Part shown: piece by piece, positions 1,997 through 5,241 of the stretch
Position numbering within the stretch: the stretch's first letter is position 1
Layout of the letters: every line of letters starts with the position of its first letter
NCBI GenBank assembly: GCA_023130215.1
Contig: JAGMAN010000032.1
Coordinates: 1 to 6,951 of the forward strand
Origin: a bacterium
Lineage (GTDB): Bacteria; NPL-UPA2; JAGMAN01
Direction: 5' to 3'
Length of the DNA: 6,951 bases
Translations under genes and position numbers: made by a program
Notes under the pieces: generated by a model
The model's input: only the letters and a program-made list of their open reading frames with translations
Told to the model about the DNA's origin: nothing
Database searches by the model: none

Positions 1997-3385
1997 ATGA
2001 AACCACTGATAATGAGTGTCTCCGGAGTGAGAGGAGTGGTGGGAGAATCTATCACTCCGGAGATTCTGGCTCGCTTTGCTTCCGCCTACGGGACGTTTGT
2101 TAAGGGAGGCGAAGTAGCAGTTGGAACCGATAGCCGTCTTTCCCGGGAGATGTGCCGCTATGCTGTTTTGGCCGGGCTGGTCTCTGTGGGATGCCAGGTC
2201 ATTGACCTGGGTATCTGCCCCACGCCGACTGTGCAGTTAATGGTTGAGCGTTTGAAGGTTAGGGGAGGGCTCGTCATTACCGCCAGCCACAATCCGGCTG
2301 AGTGGAATGGGCTCAAGTTTCTTAGCGAGGAAGGAGTCTTTCTCAATCCTCGTCAATGGAAGAGGCTGCTCAGTATTTATCATGGCAACAAGATAAACAG
2401 AGTGCCCTTTTCTTTATTGGGAAAGGTGAGGGAGAATTCCCTGGCTCTGTCCACCCATATAGAGAAAATCTTAAATTATCTCAATGTAGACCTAATCAGG
2501 AGGAAAAGGTTCCGGGTAGCCTTAGACTGCGCCAATGGAGCTGGTTCGGTCATTACTCCCATCTTCTTAAGGAGATTGGGCTGTCGGGTTCTGGGCATCA
2601 ACTGCCAGGTAAATGAAGTCTTTCCTCATCCCCCAGAGCCCATCCCTGAGAATCTGTCCAGTTTATCTACTCTAATTAAAGAGAAGAAAGCAGACGTTGG
2701 CTTCGCCCAGGACGCTGATGCTGATAGATTGGCTATTGTCTCTGAGAAAGGAGCCCCCATAGGAGAAGAATATTCAGTGACCTTGGCGACTCAGTTTGTC
2801 CTCCGGAACCAGAAGAAGAAAGGCACAGTGGTGGTTAATCTCTCCACCACTCAGGCCATAGATGACATTGCTCAGAAATTTGGCTTTAGGGTAGTGAGGA
2901 CACCGGTAGGGGAGATTTATGTAGTAGAGGGAATGAAAAAGCACGGAGCAGTAATTGGTGGGGAAGGAAATGGAGGAGTGATTGACCCCCGGGCTCACTA
3001 TGGAAGGGATAGCCTGGTCGGAATGGGACTTATCCTTCAATATTTAGCCGAATCAGGGAAAACCGTTTCCGAGCTTGCTAAGTCCATACCCCGTTATTAT
3101 CTGGTGAAGAAGAAAATTCGTTGTCCTCAAGAGAAGAAGGATAAGGTTCTCGGGATGGTCAGGAGGCAGTTCGCTGAGGAGACGCTTGACCCGTTTAGAA
3201 ATTTGTTTCTAACGGGTCTTGACCTGAGAGATGGTGTCAAGGCGATCTGGGGAGACGCCTGGGTCCAGGTCCGGCCTTCGGGAACGGAGCCGATTGTGAG
3301 AGTATTTGCTGAGGCCAGGACCAAGATAGAAGCCAGGAAGATAGTTAATTCCATATTGATGAGAATCAGGAAGATATGCAGATGA
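1997..3385 (+). CDS. glmM: Phosphoglucosamine mutase / phosphomannomutase family enzyme
   Basis: This 462-residue cytosolic alpha-D-phosphohexomutase most likely interconverts glucosamine-6-phosphate and glucosamine-1-phosphate for UDP-GlcNAc synthesis. All four domains are visible. The N-terminus has SVSGVRGVVGE (7-17). The phosphoserine loop is TASHNP, with catalytic Ser97. The Mg-binding loop is DADADR (239-244), the sugar-binding loop is GEGNGG (322-327), and the phosphate-binding loop is RPSGTEP (426-432). The GEGNGG form is what I associate with archaeal-type GlmM/ManB proteins, unlike the GE-SGH of classical bacterial GlmM, so phosphomannomutase activity cannot be excluded. There is no convincing Shine-Dalgarno sequence. 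The ATG lies 2 bases after the propeller stop, suggesting translational coupling; Met6 (2012) is an alternative start. Residues 397-407 are encoded by an apparent palindromic insertion at the domain 3/4 linker. The family call is firm; the substrate is less sure. Confidence 0.88.
   Translation: MKPLIMSVSGVRGVVGESITPEILARFASAYGTFVKGGEVAVGTDSRLSREMCRYAVLAGLVSVGCQVIDLGICPTPTVQLMVERLKVRGGLVITASHNPAEWNGLKFLSEEGVFLNPRQWKRLLSIYHGNKINRVPFSLLGKVRENSLALSTHIEKILNYLNVDLIRRKRFRVALDCANGAGSVITPIFLRRLGCRVLGINCQVNEVFPHPPEPIPENLSSLSTLIKEKKADVGFAQDADADRLAIVSEKGAPIGEEYSVTLATQFVLRNQKKKGTVVVNLSTTQAIDDIAQKFGFRVVRTPVGEIYVVEGMKKHGAVIGGEGNGGVIDPRAHYGRDSLVGMGLILQYLAESGKTVSELAKSIPRYYLVKKKIRCPQEKKDKVLGMVRRQFAEETLDPFRNLFLTGLDLRDGVKAIWGDAWVQVRPSGTEPIVRVFAEARTKIEARKIVNSILMRIRKICR
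3185..3224 (+). mobile_element. Small palindromic element inserted in frame in glmM, flanked by 7-bp direct repeats
   Basis: CTTGACC occurs at 3185-3191 and again at 3218-3224. Between and overlapping these repeats is a long hairpin: GACCCGTTTAGAAA (3188-3201), loop TTTG (3202-3205) and TTTCTAACGGGTC (3206-3218). That makes 13 base pairs with one bulged T. The repeat offset is 33 bases, exactly 11 codons, coding for LDPFRNLFLTG. Removing one unit restores an uninterrupted FAEET-LDLRDGVK reading, which looks like a normal approach to the C-terminal domain of this family. I infer a MITE-like or RPE-like mini-insertion with a target-site duplication. No other copy was seen in this window, so mobility is unproven. 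Confidence 0.5.
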
Positions 3386-3490: not shown

Positions 3491-4069
3491 ATGGAAATAA
3501 ACTATTTCGGTAAACCATATAGTTTTACTCATGTAGCAGCTCTTAGAAGATTCGGCAAAAAGCACAAATATGTTTCAATGCCTACAATCGGCGAAACCAT
3601 AGATGCAGTTATAGCTAAGCCTGATTCAATATCTGTTATACCTATTGAGAACACTGCTGGTGGAATTATTCATGATACTGTTGATATATTATGCATGGAA
3701 GAATGCCTTGAGAGCGATCTAATCATCTTGGAAGAATTGGAACTCCTTGTCCGACTTTTTTTATTGAGTAAAAAATCAATTAAATTGTCACAGGTAAAAA
3801 GAATATATTCTCATGAATACGCGCTAAAAAGAGCTGAGGACTGGATAAAAAAGCATATGCCTCATACTGTAGATTTAGAGCAGATTGTCAGCACTTCGGA
3901 AGCCGTTCATCGCATTCAAAAGGAGAAATATTCTTGTGCTATAGCAAGTTCTGAAGCAGCAAGATATTATGGTTTAAGAAAGCTAAAGGAAATCACGGTT
4001 GAAGGAAAAAAGAATCTTACCAGGTTCTTTGTATTAGGAAAAAATGGGAATTCAAAAAGAAGAATATAG
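3491..4069 (+). CDS. pheA: Prephenate dehydratase, catalytic domain only
   Basis: This 192-residue protein matches the periplasmic-binding-protein-like catalytic domain of prephenate dehydratase, which converts prephenate to phenylpyruvate in the cytosol for phenylalanine synthesis. Family landmarks are the N-terminal YFGKPYSFTHVAALRRFG (family: YLGPEGTFSH-AA), VIPIENTAGG (49-58), a Ser-His pair (107-108), STSEAV (134-139), AIASSEAA (150-157) and the catalytic Thr-Arg-Phe (177-179). Family enzymes normally carry an ACT domain on the same chain. Here the frame stops at 4069 and the ACT domain continues in the +1 frame from 4044. No Shine-Dalgarno precedes the ATG. A hand count over 3541-3900 gives about 36% GC, against about 52% in sampled lines of the mutase gene, so the pair may be of foreign origin. 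It could be a broken single gene or a genuine two-subunit enzyme. Confidence 0.85.
   Translation: MEINYFGKPYSFTHVAALRRFGKKHKYVSMPTIGETIDAVIAKPDSISVIPIENTAGGIIHDTVDILCMEECLESDLIILEELELLVRLFLLSKKSIKLSQVKRIYSHEYALKRAEDWIKKHMPHTVDLEQIVSTSEAVHRIQKEKYSCAIASSEAARYYGLRKLKEITVEGKKNLTRFFVLGKNGNSKRRI
4036..4039 (+). promoter_or_regulatory. Internal Shine-Dalgarno for the separate ACT-domain ORF
   Basis: AGGA lies 4 bases before the ATG at 4044, inside the end of the catalytic ORF and directly before the A6 run. It is close but usable, and it supports independent initiation or reinitiation of the ACT ORF, as opposed to simple decay of a fused gene. Confidence 0.4.
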
Positions 4070-4322
4070 AACTACGATTGTCTTTTCGCTTAGAGATAAA
4101 CCAGGGGCTCTCTGTGACGCTTTGAAACCATTCAAGAAGTATAATATTAATTTAACTCGAATTATATCAAGACCCCATACAAAGAAAGAATGGCAGTATA
4201 TATTTTTTATAGAAATTGAAGGAAGGGAAGAAAATCTCCGAATAAAAAAGGCTTTAAAGGGATTAAGAATACATACTATTAGTGTTTATGTTTTGGGTTC
4301 ATATCCTTTAAAAAAGGTTTAG
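4044..4322 (+). CDS. ACT regulatory domain of prephenate dehydratase (separate ORF)
   Basis: This 92-residue ORF matches the C-terminal phenylalanine-sensing ACT domain of prephenate dehydratase: RTTIVFSLRDKPGAL (9-23), GALCDAL (21-27), INLTRI (35-40), SRP (42-44), then YIFFIEIEG and a closing VLGSYP. The two ligand motifs of the family are GALV and ESRP. The first is present as GALC, and the second reads ISRP, with Ile41 in place of Glu, which may weaken feedback control. The ORF overlaps the catalytic ORF by 26 bases in the +1 frame. Losing one A from either the A6 run (4039-4044) or the A5 run (4054-4058) would fuse the two into one standard-length enzyme. Its GC content is lower still (two lines counted: about 27%). 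It is either half of a split enzyme or the tail of a frameshifted gene. An unrelated ACT protein is unlikely given its position. Confidence 0.8.
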   Translation: MGIQKEEYRTTIVFSLRDKPGALCDALKPFKKYNINLTRIISRPHTKKEWQYIFFIEIEGREENLRIKKALKGLRIHTISVYVLGSYPLKKV

Positions 4323-4707: not shown

Positions 4708-5241
4708 TTATTTAAAAAGTTCCAGTTGTGGCTCCTTCAAGAGCTGATATCGTTTCAGAAGGCACAGGAACTGGAGGAGGTCGCGACCTGCATAGTTCTT
4801 ATTCGGACGAACCTTGCGGATAAGATATTCCAGGATGGAGCTAAGTTCAAGGATGTGGTCAATCCCCTTTCCCTTTAAGATTCTTAAGCTCTTTCGTCTC
4901 ACTTCATCTGTAGCCGGAAGGGATGAGATGACCAATATCTTCTTAAAGCTGCTTCCCTTGAAGAAGTTATTAGCTACCTTCAAGGCTTCTGGTTGAATGA
5001 AATCGAATATCTCAGGAGAGGCATTTAGGAGTGAGGGAAAGAATCTCGGACGATGCCGGATTTTGACTTCAACGGTTGCCCTTTCCACCGCCGGCAGGTC
5101 TGAGGATTGAAGGAGGAAGTCAGGGGCCGGCTCTACTTTCTGTGGATTGGGATTAAGAATGAGAAGTTGGTCATTTACCTTAACTAAAAATCCATTTATC
5201 TCAAAGTATATCTTCGCCAGTTCCTGATTAACATTAGACAT
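4708..5241 (-). CDS. Uncharacterised protein, possible PD-(D/E)XK nuclease fold
   Basis: I do not recognise a named family for this 177-residue protein. The N-terminal helix (NQELAKIYFEINGFLVKVN, 5-23) is of the kind that opens Mrr-like or resolvase-like PD-(D/E)XK folds. It is followed by Pro40-Asp41 and, 16 residues later, Glu58-Val59-Lys60 in a predicted strand (ATVEVKI), which matches the spacing of a PD...ExK metal site. A later strand (KKILVISSLP, 100-109) and a helix (VRRKSLRILKGKGIDHILEL) suggest an alpha/beta core. The C-terminus is Leu/Lys-rich, with no signal peptide or membrane segment. A strong Shine-Dalgarno lies inside the end of aroK, and ATG directly follows the aroK TAA, so it is the third gene of the aroC-aroK operon. 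The nuclease role is inferred from motif spacing only. A link to aromatic synthesis is not evident. Confidence 0.7.
   Translation of the reverse strand: MSNVNQELAKIYFEINGFLVKVNDQLLILNPNPQKVEPAPDFLLQSSDLPAVERATVEVKIRHRPRFFPSLLNASPEIFDFIQPEALKVANNFFKGSSFKKILVISSLPATDEVRRKSLRILKGKGIDHILELSSILEYLIRKVRPNKNYAGRDLLQFLCLLKRYQLLKEPQLELFK

Follow-up and report, generated by a model that had tools for sequence, protein, structure and literature searches.

The window analysed here, a stretch of 6,951 nucleotides from a bacterial contig, carries a gene (Table 1) whose product scores 522 bits against the NCBIfam model TIGR03990 (Arch_GlmM, cut-off 439) and is, as judged from its profile matches, an archaeal-type GlmM (phosphoglucosamine mutase). 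The motif CTTGACC occurs twice in this gene, at positions 3185-3191 and 3218-3224 with a spacing of exactly 33 bp, as had been noted in an earlier, sequence-only reading of the window. The sequence ACCCGTTTAGAAA-TTTG-TTTCTAACGGGT at this place forms a hairpin, for which a stem of 13 bp had been given; the bulged T and the TTTG loop of 4 nt are present as described, but the stem has 12 base pairs, the bulge having been counted in the 13. The 33-bp unit is in frame and translates as LDPFRNLFLTG, residues 397-407, at the entry of domain IV, also in agreement with the earlier reading. The RNA fold of the hairpin has a z-score of -2.47, equalled by 2 of 200 shuffles, and hairpins of at least 12 bp were absent from shuffled windows (0, n = 12). 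A search of the window against Rfam gave no match.

Table 1. Features of the glmM locus, with positions in the 6,951-nucleotide window.
Feature	Position	Strand	Basis
glmM-type phosphoglucosamine mutase, 462 aa, host of the insertion	1997..3385	+	TIGR03990 and four PGM_PMM Pfam domains
Left 4-bp direct repeat CTTG (target)	3185..3188	+	Permutation test; CTTG present once in the empty sites of argD and dapA
29-bp palindromic element ACCCGTTTAGAAATTTGTTTCTAACGGGT, coding within LDPFRNLFLTGL	3189..3217	+	Sequence, 35-copy family alignment, covariation, model matches
Right 4-bp direct repeat CTTG	3218..3221	+	As for left copy; argD empty site GAGCTTGATTTTGAAGG versus filled site, +33 bp

The 11 inserted residues are also present in the two congeners, whose proteins are 83-84% identical and whose DNA still features the palindrome. 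They are without counterpart in G003, a genome of the same order and another family, and in most further relatives; a few distant glmM homologues have unrelated extra residues at the same position. Residues 397-407 are a unique insertion at the level of the genus, and they are absent from homologues whose DNA is without the palindrome. This distribution suggests that the glmM insertion predates the split of the genus and probably represents one event in its ancestor.

It had also been proposed from the window alone that a palindrome of the RPE or MITE type moved into glmM and was retained because it stays in frame. The confinement of the insert to the genus agrees with this proposal, as does the search for dispersed copies that had been recommended with it. 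With a 27-bp pattern and up to 3 mismatches, 7 near-full copies were found in the window's genome (G000), 16 and 9 in two genomes of the same genus (G001 and G002, respectively), and a few beyond the genus in the same phylum (2 in G004, 1 each in G006 and G008). The pattern is present in 6 of the 9 genomes of the phylum, with no match in G003, and the reversed pattern used as a control gave 0 in every genome. Thirty-five copies align without gaps, with pairing in 91.9% of the stem cells of the alignment. A scan of IMG/VR detected the element on two contigs, lying within an ORF. The glmM hairpin is thus very probably one member of a dispersed mobile family, a minimal MITE.

Comparison of congeners reveals filled and empty forms of the same sites. 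The argD gene is filled in G001 (CTTGACCCG...CGGGTCTTGAC) and empty in G000, and dapA is filled in G001 (TTTGCAAG[ACCCG...CGGGT]CAAGCAAAAAG) and empty in G000 (TTTGCAAGCAAAAAG); both pairs differ by exactly 33 bp, and CTTG is found once in each empty site. Differences of 33 bp are also seen for murF and trpF, such that insertion is documented by empty sites in argD, dapA, trpF, murF and glmM; those of murG, larC, rluD and a histidine kinase gene are untidy, or the duplications are imperfect. Transposition therefore took place both before and after the origin of the genus. Most copies are flanked by CTTG or TTTA on both sides, and the tetranucleotides to the left and right of a given copy match at 3.04 of 4 positions, compared to 2.30 when permuted (0 of 5000 permutations as high), i.e. 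the 4-bp repeats go beyond a shared consensus. In lnt of G002, one element lies within another, with TTTA repeats; G000 has a related double form of this site, and G001 a single form. A second nested pair (L070) was found, and the nested insertions feature 4-bp repeats. Matching tetranucleotides and nested copies thus resolve the 33 bp into 29 + 4. The mobile unit of 33 bp put forward earlier is correct as a spacing, but its mobile part is 29 bp and the other 4 bp are a target duplication. Likewise, the CTTGACC repeat is composed of the 4-bp duplication (CTTG) plus bases of element and target.

Of the six reading frames of the element, one per strand is free of stop codons (LDPFRNxFLTGL and PVRNKFLNG). 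Of the 32 copies in the three congeners, 30 are located within an open frame of 64-754 aa, and at least 28 of these within frames of at least 73 aa. All intragenic copies but one, the bulge-less L079, use the sole stop-free frame of their strand. Stop codons and selection account for this uniformity, and targeting is not needed to explain it. Each in-frame insertion adds about 11 amino acids and leaves the frame unbroken. Most copies lie inside conserved genes, i.e. glmM and a dozen or more others, including bamA, lnt, moaA, rsmA, argD, dapA, murF and larC as assigned by NCBIfam, and an MscS-like gene matching MscS models below their cut-offs. Further putative hosts, named by resemblance, are murG, lptD, rluD, trpF and genes for a glycosyltransferase, a histidine kinase and a pilin. 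Alignments with homologues extend across both flanks of the insert for glmM, the glycosyltransferase gene, rsmA, lnt, argD, dapA, murF, larC, trpF, moaA and others. Intergenic copies, copies in both orientations and decayed copies also occur. In larC of G001 (L065), the element (at 1501, minus strand) separates the LarC1 domain of this nickel cofactor protein from its LarC2 domain; larC of G000 (L187) has an insert at the same place with no clear palindrome, possibly a decayed copy.

Among 386 genomes searched with a covariance model, 19 contain related hairpins, and 13 of these lie outside the phylum. G121 and G258, both from another phylum, have elements of 68-157 bp that are delimited by the arms CCCCGTTAGARAT and ATYTCTAACGGGG. 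Their 4-bp duplications are exact but differ in sequence (TTTA, TTCA, TTGA, TCAA, TTAG, TTTG); exact variable duplications are evident in G258 itself. Several of these elements are in frame (132, 75 and 72 bp), and one lengthens a pilin-like protein by 44 residues at its N-terminal end. Since the same 13-bp arms serve as terminal inverted repeats in both the 29-bp and the 68-157 bp forms, the element in the window qualifies as a minimal MITE; it is the same design cut down to its ends.

Eight near-identical intergenic 31-bp copies (L100-L107) of the form TTTA-CCCCGCTTAGAAATTTTAATTTCTAACGGGG-TTTA are found in G195 (another family), and look like a recent intergenic expansion. In pilin-like genes of two phyla (L192 and L193 of G121; L053 of G004), elements are located at the prepilin cleavage motif GFT|LIELL, with its TTTA or TTCA codons as the target.

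The variable duplicated tetranucleotides favour a transposase that makes staggered cuts and acts on terminal repeats. In the mechanism we propose, two terminal inverted repeats of the 13-bp class and the very short loop between them make up the 29-bp element, and a 4-bp target duplication brings the total to 33 bp, or 11 codons. Such elements would be inserted at YTTR- or TTNA-like tetranucleotides by a transposase that acts in trans, presumably by DDE-type cut-and-paste chemistry. With 29 + 4 divisible by three and one stop-free frame per strand, an in-frame genic insertion would add a short peptide, (L)DPFRNxFLTGL or PVRNKFLNG depending on orientation. Insertions would survive where a loop, linker or signal peptide tolerates the added residues, with a probably near-neutral effect on the protein, and others would be purged. 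In 0.79 Mb of the copy-rich genome G258, a scan for pairs of terminal inverted repeats up to 4.5 kb apart revealed neither an autonomous element nor a transposase with these ends. The long pairs checked there as candidates are without duplications and enclose ordinary genes, e.g. for a Lon-like protease. The orientation of the hairpin is coupled to the target strand: the bulge is invariably on the side of the YTTR strand, with YTTR to the left, and this is not predicted for DDE elements with symmetric terminal repeats.

This coupling of hairpin and target strand, together with the bulged hairpin and the adjacent tetranucleotide, is reminiscent of REP-like elements mobilised by a Y1/HUH transposase (RAYT or IS200/IS605), which would be inserted 3′ of a fixed tetranucleotide without duplication, with the element itself supplying the right tetranucleotide; Y1 genes do exist in G001 and G004. 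Such an origin is nevertheless improbable. Paired tetranucleotides co-vary by site, as duplications do, and the longer relatives feature TTCA/TTCA, TTGA/TTGA and TTAG/TTAG. The Y1 domain PF01797 is absent from the element carriers G000, G002 and G008, is present in G003 which has no match to the pattern, and is common anyway (221 of 386 genomes). No association with Y1 or RAYT genes was apparent, either from the occurrence of PF01797 in the phylum and the 386 genomes or from the scanned flanks of the Y1 genes, where no copy of the element flanks the gene. Further, the element has no GTAG or CGTC end tag, its flanks being CTTG or TTTA, and no repeat-flanked Y1 gene was found.

Conservation of the stem could also be taken to mean that a peptide module or an RNA hairpin is kept for a selected function in several proteins or messages, and is not selfish. 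Changes on both sides of the stem were counted in 27 cells, from two pairs, with a compensatory A-T to G-C change at one pair in 16 of 35 rows, and the glmM insert is kept across three species. This covariation fits descent from two source lineages (AGAAAT/ATTTCT, AGAGAT/ATCTCT) and is alone no proof of RNA function; a DNA palindrome can undergo self-correction in the absence of RNA selection, and lineages of source elements would by themselves yield such a pattern. Correction of the palindrome at the DNA level explains the double stem change between congeners in glmM equally well. Given the unrelated host genes and positions, the two orientations, the intergenic and decayed copies, and the presence or absence of copies between congeners, a selected function is very unlikely. 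A local 33-bp duplication or a chance palindrome in glmM, which the flanking CTTGACC repeat alone would permit, is refuted by the dispersed copies, with the same 29 bp found at unrelated loci and also outside the phylum, and retains a negligible probability.

A minimal MITE of this kind resembles several known systems. The RPEs of Rickettsia and the protein-coding palindromic repeats of Wolbachia (Ogata et al.; see PMC2229807, PMC10969869) are likewise palindromic and mobile, are found in frame in many unrelated conserved genes, add a short peptide and also occur between genes; in-frame insertion into unrelated conserved genes is equally seen for the 29-bp element. One Rickettsia enzyme with an RPE insert is reported to have retained activity with altered affinity, and the target duplication of RPEs is listed as unknown (PMC2229807). 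Unlike RPEs, which are 105-146 bp long (PMC2229807), the 29-bp element is far shorter, occurs in other phyla, and has a 4-bp duplication and empty sites. As the length class differs (29 versus 105-146 bp), no membership among RPEs and no relation by sequence are claimed, and the likeness drawn here is one of behaviour. Intragenic REPs with GTAG or CGTC tags (PMC3733652) are likewise short palindromes with a bulge and a neighbouring tetranucleotide, and some lie within genes. The 29-bp element is without such a tag; its tetranucleotide is present as a duplicate on either side and differs from site to site, and no link to RAYT genes was found. Bacterial MITEs such as RUP, Correia/NEMIS and ERIC (PMC2229807) share terminal inverted repeats, target duplications and a non-autonomous nature with the present family. 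The 68-157 bp relatives in G121 and G258 are MITEs of the ordinary kind, unlike the 29-bp element, which is reduced to its two terminal repeats and in its genus has most copies in coding sequence.

Since RPEs and intragenic REPs behave likewise (PMC2229807, PMC3733652, PMC10969869), the kind of element is already known. What is new is the family of sequences, its small size, its occurrence in these phyla and a target duplication that is demonstrated. No published report of the arm sequences as a repeat was found in a search that covered literature other than subscription papers, and the matches returned were unrelated, appearing from their titles to be short oligonucleotides. Coding mobile palindromes have so far been described mainly from Rickettsiales, and the present ones come from unrelated uncultured lineages, where in-frame insertion of 33 bp is a recurrent way of lengthening core proteins. 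The transposition model becomes testable through the target duplications, the empty sites, the insertions of one element into another and the longer relatives that share its ends. It is tempting to speculate, as a tentative possibility, that minimal MITEs down to 29 bp are spread across phyla by a new transposase that reads little beyond the bulged palindrome, with orientation coupled to the YTTR target, and that they repeatedly wrote 11-residue peptides into essential proteins. If so, they would rank with the smallest known mobile elements and would give uncultured bacteria a general means of lengthening their proteins.

Elsewhere in the window, an ORF of 177 aa at 4711-5241 (minus strand), located between yajC and aroK, has no Pfam match. 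The pheA gene is split into overlapping ORFs in different frames of the plus strand, with the prephenate dehydratase domain (PF00800) at 3491-4069 and the ACT domain (PF01842) at 4044-4322. This stretch is AT-rich (33-36% GC, compared to 45-50% around it) and was perhaps acquired.
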